Assembly (NCBI GenBank): GCA_031283665.1
Contig: JAITBJ010000048.1
Location: forward strand, 1-32,151
DNA: 32,151 nucleotides
Direction of reading: 5' to 3'
Origin: Candidatus Opitulatrix cubana
GTDB lineage: Bacteria; Actinomycetota; Actinomycetes; Actinomycetales; Bifidobacteriaceae
Of the stretch, positions 7,164 to 31,873 are shown in pieces (position 1 is the stretch's first letter; every line of letters starts with the position of its first letter). The position numbers and the translations under genes are program-made. A model generated the notes under the pieces. That model worked only from the letters and a program-made list of their open reading frames with translations. It searched no databases and was not told where the DNA came from.

Positions 7164-8978
7164 ATGTTTAAAGGTTCAGCGTTCAAGGTTTTATTAACCT
7201 CATTTTTGATTATAACATTAACAGGTTTTGGTATTATTGTAAATAATACTGTATCAAACAGTATTGCATCTACATATAGTGCCGAATCTATACATAGTGC
7301 TGAGTTTACAGCAAATGTTGTAAAAGTGGCACGAGTCGACAATTTAGTAGGTTATTCAACAGGTGGCATAACCTGGGAATATAGTAATGCAAAAAATGCA
7401 GAACATGAAAATACACTACTTGAATATAGGGTTTTGAAAAATGATAAATGGAGCAACTGGGAAAGTGTGGAAGAAGAAAAATCTTTATCAGGTAAAAAAG
7501 GTGCTAGTGAGTTTATTGTATTTGGAAATGTAAAGTCTATAGAAGCACGAATTGGATCAGAGTCAGAAATAAAAGATTTTAAAATAAATGCAACTAATGC
7601 AGATGAGCCAAGTGCTCTTGCTACTGATAGGCTAACAAATGGAGCCAGCGCAAATGGAGACAGCGCAAATGGAGAAAGCACAGAAGATGCTGAAGCAAGC
7701 AGCTCTAATAGTTTGCGTTCAGCACCGCTCACAAGCAGCACATCTCAAACTGTGAAAGCAGGCGCTAGAGAGCCAGCAATTTGTGATAGAGCTTGCTGGG
7801 GCGCTAATGAAAGCTGGATGAGGTGGAATCCTCAGATTATAGAGTATAGGGGTGCTGTAATACATCACACTGCAGGGAGCAACGATTATACAAAAAGCGA
7901 ATCAGCAGGAATAGTCAGGTCTATATATTCTTATCATGCAAACAATCTTGGTTGGGGAGATATAGGATACAATTTTTTAGTAGATAAATATGGTCAAATT
8001 TTTGAGGGCAGATGGTTAAGCAGATATCATCAAGTTCAAGGAGCACATGCTTATGGTGCTAATGAATACACTTTTGGAGTTTCAGCATTAGGAAACTATG
8101 AAACAGCCCAGCCCACTGCCGCTTTATTAGATGCTTTTGCATCTATTATTAGCTGGAAGTTTAGCGTTTATGATATAGACCCTAGAGGTTATGCAAATAT
8201 AGGAACAGAGTCTCAAGGTGTGAAATGGCTACCAACTATTTTAGGTCATAGAGATGTGGGTGCTACAGCTTGCCCTGGAAAAAACTTGTATGCTAAATTG
8301 ACTGATCTAAAGCTGCTTATTCAATCAGATTATGGAGTAGGGGGTGCTATAGGCAATAAATGGATGGCATTAGGAGCTGCAGGCGGGAGAATGGGATTTC
8401 CAACTTCTGAAGAGATTCCTGATGGTAATGGTCAAGCACAAACTTTCCAAGGCGGAAATATATATTGGAAAAAATCAACAGGTGATACACATCCTACATG
8501 GGGAGCAATTAAATCAAAATACAATTCCATGACTGCTAGATATGGTGTTTTAGGCTATCCAACTAGCGATGAACTGAATTTGGCAAAAGGTGCAGCACAA
8601 ACTTTTGATGGCGGAAACATTTACTGGAATAAATCTACAAAAAAAACGTTTTCAGTAATAGGGCTTATAAAAAAAGCGTATAGCGCTAAAAACGGTGCAA
8701 GCGGACCTGCTGGATTTCCTAAATCTGATGAGATGGCGGGCTCTAAAGGACTGGGTCAAATTTTTGATAATGGAAAAATCTTTTTGCAAGACGGGAGTTC
8801 AAAAGCATATTGGGCGCATGATGCGATAGGAAACTTATATGATGCATTAGGCTCTCGAGGAGGAAAACTTGGTTATCCAATCACTGATGAAATAAAAACA
8901 TCATCATACACTTATCAAAAATTTGAGAATGGTGAAATCAGATGGACGCAGGCTCGCGACGCATGGGTAGTTTATTAG
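7164..8978 (+). CDS. Secreted peptidoglycan recognition protein/N-acetylmuramoyl-L-alanine amidase with C-terminal LGFP repeats
   Basis: Signal-like N-terminus; PGRP core AVIHHTAGSNDYT...HANNLGWGDIGYNFLVDKYGQIFEGR...GHRDVGATACPG; four LGFP-like repeats (GRMGFPTSEE, YGVLGYPTSDE, PAGFPKSDE, GKLGYPITDE). Confidence 0.93.
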   Translation: MFKGSAFKVLLTSFLIITLTGFGIIVNNTVSNSIASTYSAESIHSAEFTANVVKVARVDNLVGYSTGGITWEYSNAKNAEHENTLLEYRVLKNDKWSNWESVEEEKSLSGKKGASEFIVFGNVKSIEARIGSESEIKDFKINATNADEPSALATDRLTNGASANGDSANGESTEDAEASSSNSLRSAPLTSSTSQTVKAGAREPAICDRACWGANESWMRWNPQIIEYRGAVIHHTAGSNDYTKSESAGIVRSIYSYHANNLGWGDIGYNFLVDKYGQIFEGRWLSRYHQVQGAHAYGANEYTFGVSALGNYETAQPTAALLDAFASIISWKFSVYDIDPRGYANIGTESQGVKWLPTILGHRDVGATACPGKNLYAKLTDLKLLIQSDYGVGGAIGNKWMALGAAGGRMGFPTSEEIPDGNGQAQTFQGGNIYWKKSTGDTHPTWGAIKSKYNSMTARYGVLGYPTSDELNLAKGAAQTFDGGNIYWNKSTKKTFSVIGLIKKAYSAKNGASGPAGFPKSDEMAGSKGLGQIFDNGKIFLQDGSSKAYWAHDAIGNLYDALGSRGGKLGYPITDEIKTSSYTYQKFENGEIRWTQARDAWVVY

Positions 8979-19835: not shown

Positions 19836-20513
19836 ATGCTAAGTGTTTTTTATGAAATAATTACTTTTGAAAATATATTGAAATCGATTACATTTGTTTC
19901 TGCTTCCGTTGTTGCAATTATGGCATTTATTACTTATATGCATTCAAAATATCAGGAAGAGCAGGCACATAAAATTACTATATATTCAGCTAAATTTTAT
20001 GATAAAGATTGGAGTTCTTTAATTGTGGAGCAAAAGGATTTTGTAAAAGTTGGTTCTAAAGAAACTAAATTATATAGTGTTAGTCACGCGCATGGCGTTA
20101 TAATAGAAAACAATTCCGACCAACCAATAAGAGAGCTTAAATTTGAATATTTGTTGTTTGATAAAGCTAGTAAAAAGACAACTACTATTTTATCACCTAT
20201 TTATAAGGTTATACCTCCTGGTGTATTTTTTATAAATATGGATTTTAGAAGCAAACATAAATTTGGAAGGGGAAATCCTTATTCGTTAGTTTCAATTAAA
20301 GCAAGATTAAAAACTAATCCTGATATGATTTGGGTACCCGTGTCTCAAACTGAAAATAATTGTATAGTCTCAAAATATAAATTTCAAGATTTTAATTCTA
20401 AAGAGTGGACTTTTGATGGAAAGAAGTTATATAAGCAAAAAAGTAAGTTTTATCAAAAAGTCAGAAAAGTATTTAGATTTGTTTTTAAACATAAAACTAA
20501 AAAACCAATATAA
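19836..20513 (+). CDS. Hypothetical membrane-anchored protein
   Basis: 225 aa, N-terminal hydrophobic segment SITFVSASVVAIMAFITYM, basic C-terminus. Confidence 0.65.
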   Translation: MLSVFYEIITFENILKSITFVSASVVAIMAFITYMHSKYQEEQAHKITIYSAKFYDKDWSSLIVEQKDFVKVGSKETKLYSVSHAHGVIIENNSDQPIRELKFEYLLFDKASKKTTTILSPIYKVIPPGVFFINMDFRSKHKFGRGNPYSLVSIKARLKTNPDMIWVPVSQTENNCIVSKYKFQDFNSKEWTFDGKKLYKQKSKFYQKVRKVFRFVFKHKTKKPI

Positions 20514-20546
20514 AAGCGGATAAATCAGGTAATGCAAAAAACGAAA

Positions 20547-20600
20547 TTACCAATTCTCGTCATCGTCATTTAGATCATCATCATCTATAAAATCGTTCAT
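20547..20600 (-). CDS. 17-aa acidic mini-ORF MNDFIDDDDLNDDDENW, partial paralogue of the 21325..21519 start region
   Basis: Same upstream layout (TATAA[C/T]-AATTxx-ATGAACGATTTTATAG) as the 21519 start. Confidence 0.4.
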   Translation of the reverse strand: MNDFIDDDDLNDDDENW

Positions 20601-20641
20601 GTAATTGTTATAGTAGGATAGTGTGTTTAATTGTGGTAGAA

Positions 20642-21256
20642 TCACCGATTCGCATCGGCCTTATCTTCGTAGGCATCCCAATCGTTATTAAGGTTATCAT
20701 CTAAATCATCTTCATTGAAGCCGTCTTCATCGTCATCATAACCTTCATTGTCTTCGCCTGCGAAATCATTGCGACCATCCCAATAAGGTTTATAAGTGCC
20801 TGATCCGTTCTTTTTCTCATATATACGAGACGCGTAAACTGCCTTCGTTTCGCGAGATAAAATACATACATATAACACAAGCTCATCTCTCAATGTACTT
20901 AGCTTTTTCGTTTGGTCAAGGTATTCCTGTTTGCTGGCGTTCTTCAGTTTCACGATTTTATCAGCGTAAGGCCTTGCTGCATCATTTGTGATTTTAAGCG
21001 ACTTCAGAGTGTCTTTATTTTTCACCTGATCGGTGCGAAGTAGCAGTGCGGCATTGCTTTCCATAATGCCCATCTTCAGTAAGACGTATTCATTGTCGTA
21101 ATTGGAATATGCTGCTTCATATTTGCTTTGTGCGGAGGCGAAACTCTTCGCTTCGGAATCTAAATATAAACCCACCCCTAAAATAATCACCACTGCAAAA
21201 CAGATTCCTGCTTTCAGTTTCCAATTTATCCTAGGCTTCTGCAAAAGGTAGTTCAT
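20642..21256 (-). CDS. Hypothetical single-TM protein with highly acidic C-terminal tail
   Basis: WKLKAGICFAVVIILGVGLYL TM; helical middle; tail GEDNEGYDDDEDGFNEDDLDDNLNNDWDAYED. Confidence 0.65.
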   Translation of the reverse strand: MNYLLQKPRINWKLKAGICFAVVIILGVGLYLDSEAKSFASAQSKYEAAYSNYDNEYVLLKMGIMESNAALLLRTDQVKNKDTLKSLKITNDAARPYADKIVKLKNASKQEYLDQTKKLSTLRDELVLYVCILSRETKAVYASRIYEKKNGSGTYKPYWDGRNDFAGEDNEGYDDDEDGFNEDDLDDNLNNDWDAYEDKADANR

Positions 21257-21324
21257 TGTCTTAAGTATACAGTACTGTTATAAATATCCGGGAAATTTTA
21301 GAAAGTGTGCTAGGCGTCAAATGA

Positions 21325-21519
21325 TTAAAATTTAAAAAACTCGTCGTAATAGTCGTAACCGCTATTTATTCCATCTGTTCTTTTCCAGCCATCTTCGAAT
21401 TTTTGACCGTAATCATCTGTGGTATTGAATTCATCATCTTCATCATCATTGTCGAAATCTTCATCATCCAGGTCGTCTTCATCGAAATCATAATCATCGT
21501 CAGCTATAAAATCGTTCAT
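21325..21519 (-). CDS. 64-aa extremely acidic orphan protein
   Basis: MNDFIADDDYDFDEDDLDDEDFDNDDEDDEFNTTDDYGQKFEDGWKRTDGINSGYDYYDEFFKF; ~28/64 D+E; TGCTATAAT promoter 6 nt upstream of ATG. Confidence 0.6.
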   Translation of the reverse strand: MNDFIADDDYDFDEDDLDDEDFDNDDEDDEFNTTDDYGQKFEDGWKRTDGINSGYDYYDEFFKF

Positions 21520-21547
21520 AAAATTATTATAGCATGTAAGAGATTTT

Positions 21548-21571
21548 AATTTGGTAGAAATCGACCAAATT
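21548..21571. promoter_or_regulatory. Perfect inverted repeat (candidate operator) between divergent genes
   Basis: AATTTGGT-agaaatcg-ACCAAATT between starts at 21519(-) and 21619(+); TATGAT -10-like box at 21584-21589. Confidence 0.55.
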
Positions 21572-21618
21572 GGATTATGGAACTATGATAGAATAAAAGA
21601 AAGTGAGGTGAGTGTGGG

Positions 21619-22425
21619 ATGAAATTAGAAACGGCTAGAAGAAGATTAGAAAATATACATAAAGATAGTTTTAGTGCGAGAGTTTTAGAAAGTATTTTAA
21701 GAGACTCAAGAAATGGAAAAGTTGGATGGTTTATGATTTCTGAGGCGACTTGTATATTTCTTTTTTTTGTTTATATATTTACATTTTATAGTAATGAAAA
21801 AATGAAAGGTAATATATGGCTTCTTGTTATCATGTTAGTCTTTTTTTTCTATATGATTTTTCTACAAATATTTAGTGTTATATTTAATAGAGAATTAAAA
21901 CTAATGAGTTTATATAAAGCTCGTGAATCACGAGAAGCTTTATATATGGCTATTATAAAAGACTATAATGAACAATTATATAAAAATTATGTAAGAAAAA
22001 AAGAAACTTATAGACATGAGGAAATATATGAGTTGACAAAAGAGATGCATAATGCTCAAGGAATAATAGATGAGGCAAAAAAAAGATACGAGCAGATGTT
22101 ATATTATGGGGATTATTCTGATGCATTAAAAAGAAAGTTGCAAAAAGATTATATAGATGCAAATTTATATAGAAAAAAATTAGAACATCAATATTCTGAT
22201 TTAATTAAAGAGGTTGAAAAAGAAAGAGCTTTATTAACTTTTGGTAAAGTGCCTTTTGATGAATCCGAAAGAGAACAATTGACAAAAGAGGTTTTAGAAT
22301 ATGAAAGGAAAATAAAAAAAGAAGTAAATGAAGACTTAAAAGAAAAAGGAATTAAGCCAAGTGATAAATTGATATCATTTGAAAAAATATTAAAAGAATA
22401 CGAAAGCGAGGAAAAACGAAAATGA
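21619..22425 (+). CDS. Membrane protein: two TM segments and long coiled-coil cytoplasmic domain
   Basis: WFMISEATCIFLFFVYIFTFY and IWLLVIMLVFFFYMIFLQIF, then charged heptad-like sequence. Confidence 0.65.
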   Translation: MKLETARRRLENIHKDSFSARVLESILRDSRNGKVGWFMISEATCIFLFFVYIFTFYSNEKMKGNIWLLVIMLVFFFYMIFLQIFSVIFNRELKLMSLYKARESREALYMAIIKDYNEQLYKNYVRKKETYRHEEIYELTKEMHNAQGIIDEAKKRYEQMLYYGDYSDALKRKLQKDYIDANLYRKKLEHQYSDLIKEVEKERALLTFGKVPFDESEREQLTKEVLEYERKIKKEVNEDLKEKGIKPSDKLISFEKILKEYESEEKRK

Positions 22426-22475
22426 ATAGATTATTAAAAGAATTATATGCAGTGAAAACTAATGGAAAATTATAG
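22422..22475 (+). CDS. 17-aa mini-ORF MNRLLKELYAVKTNGKL, possibly a translational coupling peptide
   Basis: ATGA overlap with the upstream stop; its 3' end overlaps the start at 22462. Confidence 0.3.
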   Translation: MNRLLKELYAVKTNGKL

Positions 22476-23325
22476 GCATAGATTGAAAAAATCTACACAG
22501 AAACATAGTAGGAGGAAGTTTACACATTATAAAGATTTACGAACTGGTGAAATCTGTAGTGTTAATTATTTGATTGAAACAATCGGGGACAGTAAAAAAG
22601 GTAAAGAATATATATTAGACAATATAGGATGTCCAGATTGTGGCGTAAAGCTTGAATATGTATTGTTTAGATTTAGTGCTAACCCGTTTTTGCGTAGAGG
22701 TAGCCAACAACATTATGAAGATTGCGAATACCGGTCTTTAGACGGTCAATCAAAAAGAAAAAGATTGAATAATAAAGCTAATTCTTGTAAAGAATTTGAT
22801 ATTGCAACTGGAGAAAATTTTTTAAAATCGATTTTGTTTGCTAGAGAGAAAATAAGCGGTAAACTTGATAGCCCCCAGAATGTTACTACGATAGAAAATA
22901 ATGCCTCAGAAATAGAGAATAAGTATGGAGAAAGTAAAAGTAGTTATATAAAACGGAAATTAAATTATATGACAATGGAAAAAATCTATAATGAAGGAAA
23001 TTGTTTTTATGGAGCTGTGACAATAAAGCTTGTTTTGAGCAGAAGAGAGGGTAAGTTTCCATTTCTTATGTTTTTTGATAAAGAGGCAGGTAAGTATATA
23101 TGTGGCTTATTTTTTGCTTCTCAGAATGTGTATAGCCATTTTTATAATATGTATTCTCTTGAATCTGGAAAGGAATATTTTGGAAATATAGCTTTTATTT
23201 CTACAATAGAGGAAAACAGAAAAGGAAATAAAACATATTATAACGCTTATCTTAAGCACTCAAAGAAAGTACTTATAGAAGGTTTAACTTTAGTAGCCAA
23301 TAATAATGAGATCAATTCAGACTGA
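22462..23325 (+). CDS. Zinc-finger protein with CoiA-like N-terminal pattern
   Basis: CPDCGVKLEYVLFRFSANPFLRRGSQQHYEDCEYR (CxxC...H-x3-C), similar to CoiA-like CPxCG...HFxH...C. Confidence 0.5.
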   Translation: MENYRHRLKKSTQKHSRRKFTHYKDLRTGEICSVNYLIETIGDSKKGKEYILDNIGCPDCGVKLEYVLFRFSANPFLRRGSQQHYEDCEYRSLDGQSKRKRLNNKANSCKEFDIATGENFLKSILFAREKISGKLDSPQNVTTIENNASEIENKYGESKSSYIKRKLNYMTMEKIYNEGNCFYGAVTIKLVLSRREGKFPFLMFFDKEAGKYICGLFFASQNVYSHFYNMYSLESGKEYFGNIAFISTIEENRKGNKTYYNAYLKHSKKVLIEGLTLVANNNEINSD

Positions 23326-23365: not shown

Positions 23366-24250
23366 ATGCAAGCAGCGGCAGTTTCTCCTCAAAAAGGCAA
23401 TGATGAGAGAATAGATGTAAAAGAAAATAGGCTGCTGCAGTTAGATAGTGTAGTTTTTGAGACATTGCTAAAAGACAGGACAACAGGCAAAAATATTCTA
23501 TGGGGAACAGACAATTATTTGCATTATGGAAAAGAATATGCACCTGATAAACAGATTTTGAAGGAACTCATTACTGGTAGACATGGTGAAGTAATTCGGC
23601 CAAGAGTGAAAAAGTCTAAGTCAGAACAAAAAAATAGAGTGAAGCAAAAGGCGGAGGTTTTTACTCCAAGTTGGGTTTGCAAATTGCAAAATGATTATAT
23701 AGATGATGCTTGGTTTGGCAAGAAGTCAAAAAGCTTCCCAACTAAGGATGGCAAAACCTGGAGCGACTATATAAAAATGACATGGTTAGAAATAGCGTGC
23801 GGTGAAGCACCATATATTGTTAATAGATATGACGCCACAACCAGCGATACAGTAACACTATTAAAGCGGATAGGCTTTTTAGATATGAAACTTAAGATTA
23901 TTTTTACTGAATGCAAAACGAAAGAAGATTGGATAAAATGGACAAAAATTGCTTATCAAAGTTGTTATGGATTTGAATGGCAGGGTGACAATTTGCTGTT
24001 AGCTCGTGAAAATCTGTTATATACTTTTTCAGATTATTATGAACATAAATTTAGAAACAAACCCGATGTAGAAGTTCTGCGAGAAATTGCAGAGATTATT
24101 TCTTGGAATATATGGCAGATGGACGGTTTGACATATTGCATCCCAAATACAGAAAAAGAAGCTATGTTAATGGATTGGGAAACTAATGAGCCGACAAAGT
24201 TTGCGCAAATAGCGACTGATAGCTACCAGGATTCTCTTTTTGAGGTATAA
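23366..24250 (+). CDS. Restriction-modification subunit M-like: SAM-binding half of an N6-adenine methyltransferase
   Basis: Motif X-like AEVFTPSWVCKLQN; motif I-like WLEIACGEAPYIVNRYD; motif II/III-like AYQSCYGFEWQGDNLLLARENLLYTF; no NPPY motif in this ORF. Confidence 0.8.
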   Translation: MQAAAVSPQKGNDERIDVKENRLLQLDSVVFETLLKDRTTGKNILWGTDNYLHYGKEYAPDKQILKELITGRHGEVIRPRVKKSKSEQKNRVKQKAEVFTPSWVCKLQNDYIDDAWFGKKSKSFPTKDGKTWSDYIKMTWLEIACGEAPYIVNRYDATTSDTVTLLKRIGFLDMKLKIIFTECKTKEDWIKWTKIAYQSCYGFEWQGDNLLLARENLLYTFSDYYEHKFRNKPDVEVLREIAEIISWNIWQMDGLTYCIPNTEKEAMLMDWETNEPTKFAQIATDSYQDSLFEV

Positions 24251-28583: not shown

Positions 28584-28710
28584 AATATGTTCGTTTATAA
28601 TTCGTTTTTGAAAACACCCAGCAAAAGATAATAGAAAATATAGTTAATAATTAGAATATATTAAACATCTAAAACATACTCCAAATCCAAAAATTTAAGA
28701 TGAATTGGGG

Positions 28711-28733
28711 TATAATATACTTATTAGTATAAT
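28711..28733 (+). promoter_or_regulatory. Candidate promoter with overlapping dyad upstream of the AAA ATPase gene
   Basis: TATAAT 28711-28716 and a second TATAAT 28728-28733; dyad TATACT(28716-28721)-TATT-AGTATA(28726-28731). Confidence 0.45.
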
Positions 28734-28785
28734 CAAGCAGTAATTCTAAAAAATGTGGAACTCTATAATTATAAGTCTTAAATAG

Positions 28786-28831
28786 CCTTAAATAATAACT
28801 CAGCTGTTTGAGTTAAACAGTTGGATTAAGG
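28786..28831 (+). ncRNA. Structured 5' leader element or small RNA upstream of the AAA ATPase gene
   Basis: CAGCTGTTT(28801-28809)-GAGTT-AAACAGTTG(28815-28823) 9-bp stem with one G-U; flanking CCTTAA(28786-28791)/TTAAGG(28826-28831); competing AACTCA(28797-28802)/TGAGTT(28809-28814). Confidence 0.4.
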
Positions 28832-28933
28832 TAGATAGAGAAACTAAAATTTTTTAGGTTGCTCTTTAAGTAGAGAAATAAAATTCAGTGAATGAATATT
28901 TATACTTATTGATTAAAAGAATGAAAGGATAAA

Positions 28934-31108
28934 ATGATAATAGAAAAAGTACAAAATTTAAATAAAAAGTCTTGGAACGGGTATACTAATCCTGAGGATT
29001 TGATTTTTAAGCAAAGAAATATAATTTTTGGTTATAATGGTAGTGGCAAATCTTCATTAGCTGATGGCATCGTAGATGAGTTCCGTAGAAATAATGTAGT
29101 AAGAGATGATAACTTTAGATATTTTAATAAGGACTATCTTGGAAAAATATTGTTAAGCGAGAATAAAAATCTTAGAGGAGTAAAGGCGAGCTTTGGCAAG
29201 AAAAATGTTGATATCGAGAATGAAATTAATGAAAATAAAAAGAGACTTGATAAGACTAATTACCAAATAGAGGGATTGGAGGAGAAACTCAAAAAAATTG
29301 AAAATGATATAAACACTAGAATAAAAGAGATTTTTATGGAAAAAAAGGGAAATATTAATCTTAAACAAAAGTCTGGAAGTTTTAAAGAAAAAATTGAATT
29401 ATATAAAAAAGACTATAATTCTGTAAAAGAAAGTTTGTCAGATGTAGAACTGAAAAAAGCAAGTTCTGATACTGATTATGAAAAGTTATTGAATCAGATA
29501 GAAAGTCTAGACATAGGAACTTTAGAGTCATTTAACTTATCAAAGTCTGAAGAAATAAAAAATATTTGTGAATTTATAGATTATAGCTTGGAAAATGTAC
29601 CCGAACAGGATTTACTTTTATGGTTAAATAAAGGTCTTCAATTCCATACGAATACAAAGAATTGTGAATTTTGTGATGGCAAATTATATATTGAAAAGAT
29701 AAGGTTTAAGATAAAAAAATATAATGAAAATAAAAAGGCAAAAGATGAAGCAACAATAAGAGAATTTTATAATAATTTGTCGACTTTTTGTAAATCTGTT
29801 TATGAAATATATAATAAAAAGGATTTAGTTAAATCTTTTATAGATATAGACGAACAGTTTTATTTAGATCTTGAAAACTACAGTAAGGAAATATTAGGAG
29901 TCCAGCAAATACTAAAAGATAAATTAGAAAAAATGGAAAAGTTAATAAATTTTGATATTCTTCATTTTTCTAAAAGTGTATCTTGTATCGTTGAAATATA
30001 TGAGATGATAAAACTAGGAAAAGAAAAGTTGATTGATGTTTACAAGGAGCGATTTATTAATATTAATCAAATTATAAGAGGTGCAATTGGATATGGAGTT
30101 ATTAATGATTCTTTTATTATAAAAAATACTAATGATTATAATAATATTGAGAATGATCAAATAAAACTAGAAAAAGAAAGAAAGTCAGTTCTACAAAATA
30201 TAAAAACTCTTGTAGATGAAAAATCATCGGTTAAGGATTTTTGCGATTTTTTAAATGATGTTCTACATGGATTAAATAGCAATTTAAAGCTTAAAATACA
30301 AGGTAATGATTATGTAATAAAGACAAGGGATGACACAAATTTAGCTATTAAAGATATAAGCGAAGGTGAGAAGAATATGTTAATGCTGTTGTTCTTTTAT
30401 TTTGAATTATTTAATGATAATAAACAAAAAGATTTTAAAAAAGAAATTAAGTTAATTATAATAGATGACCCAATTTCTTCATTAGATAATCACAATTCTT
30501 TTTATGTTTTAGATTTGATTAGAAAAATTTTAAATCTAAAAGAAAATTTTCAGCTATTTATTTTTACACATTCTTGGGATAATTTTTGTAATCTTACGTT
30601 TGGTAAAAAAGGCGCCGAAAACAATTTTAGATTTTTTGAAGTATACAAAAATTTTGATGGTGAAAGTCAATTAAAAACCCAAAAATGTTTGACGAAACCA
30701 TATAAATATAACTTTATAAAGTTATTAGAATTTTCGGAAAAGAAGGATGCTAGTCAGTTTACAGATTGTGAAATATATCATTATCCAAATTTATTAAGGA
30801 TTGTTTTAGAGGAATATATAAGTTTTATTCTTCAAGACGAAAGCGTTCAACCAAATAGTAATGTTTCAAATAAAAATAAAATTATAAAAGTATTATATAA
30901 TGAAGAACCAGATAAGGTAGGAGATGATGAAAGAATAAGATTAGAGTCCTTTCTTAGCGTTTGTAATATTTTATCACATGAATTTTCACGCAGCCCAGAC
31001 GATATTCTAAATGCTGCTAAATTCTTTTTAGAAAGAATAAAAAAAACTAATAAACAACATTATGACAGTATAGATGGATCAAGATGGCAAACTAAAGAGC
31101 AGATATGA
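28934..31108 (+). CDS. AAA_13/RloC-PrrC-like ATPase with coiled coil and CxxC zinc-hook motif
   Basis: IIFGYNGSGKSSLADGI Walker A; FRYFNKDYLGKILLSENKNLRGVKASFGKKN; NCEFCDGKL at coiled-coil apex; ISEGEKNMLMLLFFYFELF signature; LIIIDDPISSLDNHN Walker B; FIFTHSWDNFC. Confidence 0.82.
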   Translation: MIIEKVQNLNKKSWNGYTNPEDLIFKQRNIIFGYNGSGKSSLADGIVDEFRRNNVVRDDNFRYFNKDYLGKILLSENKNLRGVKASFGKKNVDIENEINENKKRLDKTNYQIEGLEEKLKKIENDINTRIKEIFMEKKGNINLKQKSGSFKEKIELYKKDYNSVKESLSDVELKKASSDTDYEKLLNQIESLDIGTLESFNLSKSEEIKNICEFIDYSLENVPEQDLLLWLNKGLQFHTNTKNCEFCDGKLYIEKIRFKIKKYNENKKAKDEATIREFYNNLSTFCKSVYEIYNKKDLVKSFIDIDEQFYLDLENYSKEILGVQQILKDKLEKMEKLINFDILHFSKSVSCIVEIYEMIKLGKEKLIDVYKERFININQIIRGAIGYGVINDSFIIKNTNDYNNIENDQIKLEKERKSVLQNIKTLVDEKSSVKDFCDFLNDVLHGLNSNLKLKIQGNDYVIKTRDDTNLAIKDISEGEKNMLMLLFFYFELFNDNKQKDFKKEIKLIIIDDPISSLDNHNSFYVLDLIRKILNLKENFQLFIFTHSWDNFCNLTFGKKGAENNFRFFEVYKNFDGESQLKTQKCLTKPYKYNFIKLLEFSEKKDASQFTDCEIYHYPNLLRIVLEEYISFILQDESVQPNSNVSNKNKIIKVLYNEEPDKVGDDERIRLESFLSVCNILSHEFSRSPDDILNAAKFFLERIKKTNKQHYDSIDGSRWQTKEQI

Positions 31109-31150: not shown

Positions 31151-31873
31151 TTATAGTTTTACAATTTTTTTGTGTATTTCCTTTTGTTCTAAATCTATTA
31201 TAATTGCCAAAACAGTATTGTAGGTGCTATCATACCAATATTCTAAATCTTCTATGGGAACTTTAATTTTAGTGTGTCGTATATCTAAAATATCATTAAC
31301 TAATCTTTTGTAATCTGTTCTAAGTTGTTTATTTAAAGTAGGATTTTTAATTAATTCTTCTATGCTATTTGCTGTAAATTTTAAAATATTTTTCTTTTCC
31401 TCAAGACTATTAGAAAAATGATTATATTCAAATAGTTTTAATGATAAATTTATATCGTCATTAGAAATCAATTGGGCAGCTTGCGACATTTTAGAATTTG
31501 ATTCGACCACAATGTAGTGATTATTTACTTTAATTATTTCGTGGTTTAATTGTGACAAAGTGTATGTTATTATTTGAAACAAATTGTATAAACACGAAGC
31601 GAACTCGCTAGAATTATTTTTTAAATTATTGACTTTTAAAAATCCTAAAAATAAATAAACTATTTCACTCATATTAAATATTCTATTTGTAACCGATTTT
31701 TGAAAAATAACTAAATTATCAAAAAAAAGATTAAAATCTTGATTGTATTTAATTCGTAAATGTAAATGTTCTTCATCGTTTCTTTTAAAAAATAGATACT
31801 TGATAACATTTAAAATAGTTGTTTCTTTTATTTCGGAATCAGAATCTTGAAAAAAATTTAATGGCTCATCCAC
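31151..31873 (-). CDS. Hypothetical helical protein, convergent to the ATPase gene
   Basis: 240-aa ORF with GTG start; mostly helix-forming sequence; no recognised motif. Confidence 0.55.
   Translation of the reverse strand: MDEPLNFFQDSDSEIKETTILNVIKYLFFKRNDEEHLHLRIKYNQDFNLFFDNLVIFQKSVTNRIFNMSEIVYLFLGFLKVNNLKNNSSEFASCLYNLFQIITYTLSQLNHEIIKVNNHYIVVESNSKMSQAAQLISNDDINLSLKLFEYNHFSNSLEEKKNILKFTANSIEELIKNPTLNKQLRTDYKRLVNDILDIRHTKIKVPIEDLEYWYDSTYNTVLAIIIDLEQKEIHKKIVKL

Follow-up and report, generated by a model that had tools for sequence, protein, structure and literature searches.

Gene content of the locus

The window, by which we mean the whole 32,151-nucleotide stretch of Candidatus Opitulatrix cubana DNA analysed here, contains an rloC-like gene (P0001) that follows a two-gene restriction-modification (R-M) cassette (P0004 and P0005) on the same strand. 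The P0001 ORF encodes 724 aa, starts with ATG, and has no internal stop. Fractions in the feature list refer to 89 full-length homologous sequences, which were pooled from all sources and aligned. Because this set was gathered partly by the Walker B motif, conservation of Walker B is biased, while that of the hook and the C-terminus is unbiased.

23366..24250, + strand: R-M cassette gene 1, P0004, encoding a methylase-type protein that carries the motifs FTP and EIACGEAPYI (PADLOC MTase_II, 303 bits; plasmid relatives)
24261..28583, + strand: R-M cassette gene 2, P0005, 1440 aa, ResIII helicase and Eco57I methylase (profile matches)
28584..28933, + strand: spacer of 350 bp that separates the cassette from rloC and in which no terminator-like site was found
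28934..31108, + strand: rloC-like gene P0001, AAA_13 ABC-ATPase with zinc hook and putative C-terminal nuclease domain
29030..29056, + strand: Walker A GYNGSGKSS, residues 33-41 (sequence; N35 88/89, K39 88/89)
Residues 64-73 of P0001, + strand: FNKDYLGKIL (sequence)
29198..30271, + strand: helical coiled-coil insert that splits the ATPase head (AlphaFold2 secondary structure)
29663..29674, + strand: CEFC zinc hook, C244 and C247 (CxxC in 89/89 homologues)
30359..30373, + strand: ABC signature SEGEK, residues 476-480 (S476 and G478 89/89, E479 88/89)
30455..30487, + strand: Walker B and D-loop IIIDDPISSLD, residues 508-518 (D511 and D512 89/89)
30566..30580, + strand: switch region THSWD, residues 545-549, with linchpin His546 (89/89)
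30686..31105, + strand: all-helical putative anticodon-nuclease domain, residues 585-724 (AlphaFold2; weak resemblance to HEPN toxins)
30797..30811, + strand: predicted catalytic Arg622-x3-Glu626 (R 86/89; E 80 and D 6 of 89)
30974..30979, + strand: Ser681 and predicted catalytic His682 (S 85/89, H 85/89)
31058..31060, + strand: His709, a second conserved His outside the published triad (83/89)

The preliminary description of this DNA had proposed an RloC/PrrC-like ATPase with a zinc hook, and all motifs of the RloC-type layout that it listed were present at the places it gave, CEFC included. Pfam AAA_13 matched P0001 over its full length (residues 25-685, 157 bits, cutoff 36, E 1.1e-45), and the family assignment was thus borne out by this match, the invariant CxxC, and the C-terminal triad described below. 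At 724 aa, P0001 lies inside the published RloC size span of 658-897 (PMC2610378); it has the Walker A, signature, Walker B, and switch His of RloC proteins together with a head-splitting coiled-coil insert that carries CxxC. In the AlphaFold2 model, which was built with 65 sequences (mean pLDDT 81.8), the insert helices extend from about residue 89 to about residue 446 and include the hook; the long helices flanking it are followed by the helical C-terminal domain. Foldseek matches of this model in the PDB included Rad50/SMC heads and Lamassu proteins. Sequence matches in the PDB were confined to portions of the head or of the coiled coil, and no PrrC or RloC structure was found among them.

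The profiles of HsdR, HsdM, and HsdS gave no match across the window. The adjacent R-M genes form a two-gene Eco57I-MTase/ResIII cassette, and a type I identity was rejected. P0005 shows 64.5% identity with Enterococcus faecium plasmid proteins over residues 3-1208; its unmatched C-terminal ~230 residues would fit a variable target-recognition region. Such two-gene cassettes are common on Lactobacillales plasmids (L125, L126, L166, and L167). In the relatives examined, the downstream gene was a DUF262, nucleotidyltransferase, or toxin-antitoxin gene, or none with a known role was adjacent; rloC was absent beside these cassettes. The GC content of rloC (0.249) is much lower than that of the R-M genes (0.337 and 0.359). 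Since a 350-bp gap also separates them, rloC and the cassette were probably acquired separately. The preliminary description had suggested from the R-M linkage that P0001 is a second-line effector. The R-M genes do adjoin it, but they are not type I, and the gap, the GC difference, and the cassette relatives devoid of RloC leave functional coupling no more than plausible.

Upstream of the cassette (19836-23325) are AT-rich ORFs of 225, 268, and 287 aa for which neither Pfam nor PADLOC gave a convincing match; that of 287 aa (22462-23325) contains a CPDC motif. Downstream, a 240-aa ORF on the opposite strand (31151-31873, GC 0.228) is convergent with rloC and matched no family, and no homologue of it was found among the relatives' loci searched.

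The C-terminal domain and its predicted nuclease triad

RloC has been defined by Arg-x3-Glu-x36-52-His, often with Ser before His, and replacement of any of Arg692, Glu696, and His737 by Ala abolishes the activity of the Geobacillus kaustophilus enzyme (Davidov and Kaufmann 2008, PMC2610378). P0001 has the pattern R622-x3-E626-x55-S681-H682, which we assigned from these published residues and the motif rather than by alignment to a proven RloC or PrrC sequence. Since R622, E626, and S681-H682 align with the published pattern, the earlier statement that no anticodon-nuclease motif could be recognised in this domain was wrong; R-x3-E...SH is among its most conserved features. The domain is weakly alignable among homologues outside its motifs, and the columns conserved above 90% in the 89-sequence alignment were N619 (87/89), R622, S681, H682, and H709. 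R, E/D, and H all align in 84 of the 89 homologues, and in 83 they occur together with the hook cysteines, the Walker A Lys, and the Walker B Asp. Because the triad is kept and aligned in this way, P0001 is probably an RloC-type anticodon nuclease. The E-to-H spacing is 30-55 in the homologue set (mostly 37-45) and 40 in G. kaustophilus RloC, whereas P0001, whose clade is divergent, has the longest at 55; this is 3 beyond the range given in 2008, with the triad residues themselves all present.

In the AlphaFold2 model, R622 and E626 share one helix and H682 is located just past another. The C-terminal domain was also modelled alone (pLDDT 88.3, pTM 0.84). Foldseek found no significant match to this model in the PDB, HEPN matches having E of about 1.5-3.7. 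The entries with the best TM scores (about 0.45-0.5, E >1) were the HEPN toxins or relatives 7ae6, 7ae8, 6m6u, 7bxo, and 1wwp, the last of which we take to be HEPN-like. The structural check suggested in the preliminary description showed an all-helical domain with conserved R and H, and PDB matches that lack significance. The nuclease domains of RloC and PrrC have been classed as HEPN (Anantharaman et al., PMC3710099), and the weak matches are supportive, though not proof, of a HEPN-type domain in P0001 in line with that assignment.

His709 sits in an H[YF]xxM context in 83 of the 89 RloC-like proteins and lies outside the mutagenesis described in the 2008 RloC paper (PMC2610378). From its conservation, it may be an extra catalytic or tRNA-binding residue. 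P0001 thus represents a distant RloC branch in which the nuclease triad is still recognisable, and to this triad it adds H709 as a second nearly invariant His.

Distribution of homologues and their linkage to R-M genes

P0001 is rare in its order, with matches in 17 of 396 genomes including its own; the other matches showed 22-38% identity in the matched segments, and identity to the homologue set was 15-30%. The distribution is patchy, and the protein is absent from most of the host order. Three genomes of the same genus, each incomplete, yielded no copy, and the rpmF site, sought as an empty insertion site, could be located in only one same-genus genome, on a short contig with ~60 bp of similarity. 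Two plasmids matched P0001, and a search for homologues in phages and viral contigs found none. When GTDB genome contigs were scanned with a profile, 80 loci were obtained. The best PADLOC family for P0001 was PDC-S06 (119 bits), which matched 65 of 65 scanned homologues. PDC-S06 is a PADLOC candidate label without a mechanism, and from what is seen here it coincides, in part or in full, with the AAA_13/RloC-like group. The PADLOC PrrC profile scored 42 bits over residues 355-632, a span that includes R622 and E626; when a true PrrC was sought with this profile among the relatives and in the phylum, only RloC-size or weak matches were obtained.

In a quick tree with long branches, P0001 grouped with L025, L026, and L019/L020 (SH-aLRT 99; branch length of the clade, 1.54). 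The rloC-like gene lies between hsdM and hsdS in L025, a Coriobacteriia MAG, and directly upstream of hsdRMS in L026 (Latilactobacillus graminis) and in the Lactobacillaceae plasmids L019 and L020. Because L019 and L020 are near-identical, these four type I R-M relatives represent three independent placements. An ArdC-like gene is near the L019 locus. In L025, a 173-aa ORF (7445-7966) without a Pfam match overlaps the 3' end of the rloC-like gene within the hsd operon, and it is possibly a co-translated partner. A clade member found later, G758, belongs to the same family as the host (419 bits with the clade profile), and no type I R-M gene was found within about 8-9 kb of it. Truncated relics of clade members are present on Weissella plasmids.

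An R-M gene was found in the flank of 27 of 82 flanked loci and within 1.5 kb in 22, while 1 of 20 control 20-kb stretches had a type I locus; this contrast is indicative, because the R-M profiles were built from the tested loci themselves and the controls were drawn from one order. It agrees with the defence association expected of homologues. Part of the linked R-M proteins are BREX PglX or type IIG, not type I. In the host's family, a gene for a PglX/type IIG-like methylase precedes an RloC-like gene by 27 bp (L163:5585-11487). RloC has been reported to be rarely R-M-linked, in 8 of 73 cases (PMC2610378), so that such linkage does not define RloC; in contrast, several close relatives of P0001 reside within R-M operons.

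Proposed mode of action and competing readings

P0001 resembles G. kaustophilus RloC in size class, in an ABC head split by a CxxC-bearing coiled coil, and in the R-x3-E...SH triad (PMC2610378). E. coli PrrC, which is linked to EcoprrI, likewise has an ABC-ATPase fused to an R-E-H anticodon-nuclease domain. However, PrrC is 341-416 aa long without a zinc-hook insert and is reported to be invariably linked to type Ic R-M genes (PMC2610378), whereas P0001 has the insert and lies beside an Eco57I/ResIII cassette; PrrC proper was ruled out by the 724-aa length and the insert. PARIS AriA, Septu PtuA, and Lamassu LmuB are phage-defence proteins whose ABC/SMC head is related to that of P0001. The nuclease of these systems is a separate protein, unlike the nuclease-type domain fused to the C-terminus of P0001. 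We consider it likely that P0001 is a divergent RloC-type protein acting by the general mechanism of that family, which is already known; the member is new.

In the mechanism, borrowed by homology from G. kaustophilus RloC, Acinetobacter RloC, and PrrC, a Rad50-like ABC head and an antiparallel coiled coil ending in the CxxC hook, fused to the helical RNase domain, would keep the nuclease in a latent state. DNA damage caused by a phage, or failure of a restriction system, possibly that of the adjacent Eco57I/ResIII cassette, would shift the ATPase state and thereby free the nuclease, which would cut tRNA at the anticodon, stop translation, and abort the infection. Release by DNA breaks is attributed to Acinetobacter RloC in a passage of PMC12707154, and release by R-M failure is reported for PrrC (PMC2610378). 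RloC activity rises when the hook is mutated, and RloC enzymes are characterised by tRNA cleavage at the anticodon with excision of the wobble nucleotide. Nuclease activity, tRNA substrate, trigger, and R-M coupling are what we infer for P0001 from these homologues, and the whole explanation as a latent ATPase-gated tRNA nuclease seems to us quite probable.

An SMC/RecN/SbcC/Rad50-type ATPase with a housekeeping role in DNA repair would share the Rad50/SMC-like head and could account for the SMC_N match, but this match is weak (24 bits against 157 for AAA_13 over the full length), and none of the PDB sequence matches extends beyond segments of the head or coiled coil. With the added conserved nuclease-type domain and the patchy occurrence, this identity was ruled out as extremely improbable; the best Pfam match, AAA_13, was not to the housekeeping proteins that the preliminary description had named as speaking against it. 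The AT-rich composition (25% GC), the single copy in an incomplete assembly, and the Weissella relics could suggest a degenerate, inactive copy. Such decay is highly unlikely, as the ORF is intact and the ATPase, hook, and triad residues are all kept. An RloC-type ATPase-RNase under the same head and hook control might instead cut another RNA or another tRNA site: the clade is divergent, with a long, well-supported branch, its C-terminal domain aligns weakly outside the motifs, and many substrates are known for HEPN-fold RNases (PMC3710099). The low identity to homologues also means that the target may differ from the tRNA anticodon. Nevertheless, the exact triad, N-x-x-R, and the further His are kept as in the wider RloC-like family, and we regard another substrate as unlikely.

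As for the trigger, P0001 could be a PrrC-like guard silenced by P0004/P0005 and freed once a phage inhibitor disables them. P0001 is the next gene on the same strand with no terminator-like site found between them, R-M linkage recurs in the family, and the four nearest relatives identified at first are all located within type I R-M operons. On the other hand, the gap and the GC difference, the other downstream genes or none in the cassette's plasmid relatives, and G758 speak against it, leaving this trigger possible although doubtful. If the adjacent non-type-I R-M genes were the partner, anticodon-nuclease guarding would extend beyond type I/III systems.

Tentatively, and with more doubt than belief, the clade may also be viewed as a restriction-guard RloC branch that moved between unrelated R-M types, the mobile Eco57I/ResIII cassette having an interchangeable downstream guard slot. 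This slot would be filled by RloC here and by DUF262, nucleotidyltransferase, or toxin-antitoxin genes elsewhere, so that a restriction enzyme other than type I would be under surveillance by a Rad50-like sensor with a zinc hook. Novelty is limited; what is new and best open to testing is H709, together with the question whether the guarded partner can be an R-M system other than type I. As the branch has both type I-linked and R-M-free relatives, it could serve to distinguish directly between restriction failure and DNA damage as the signal that RloC senses.
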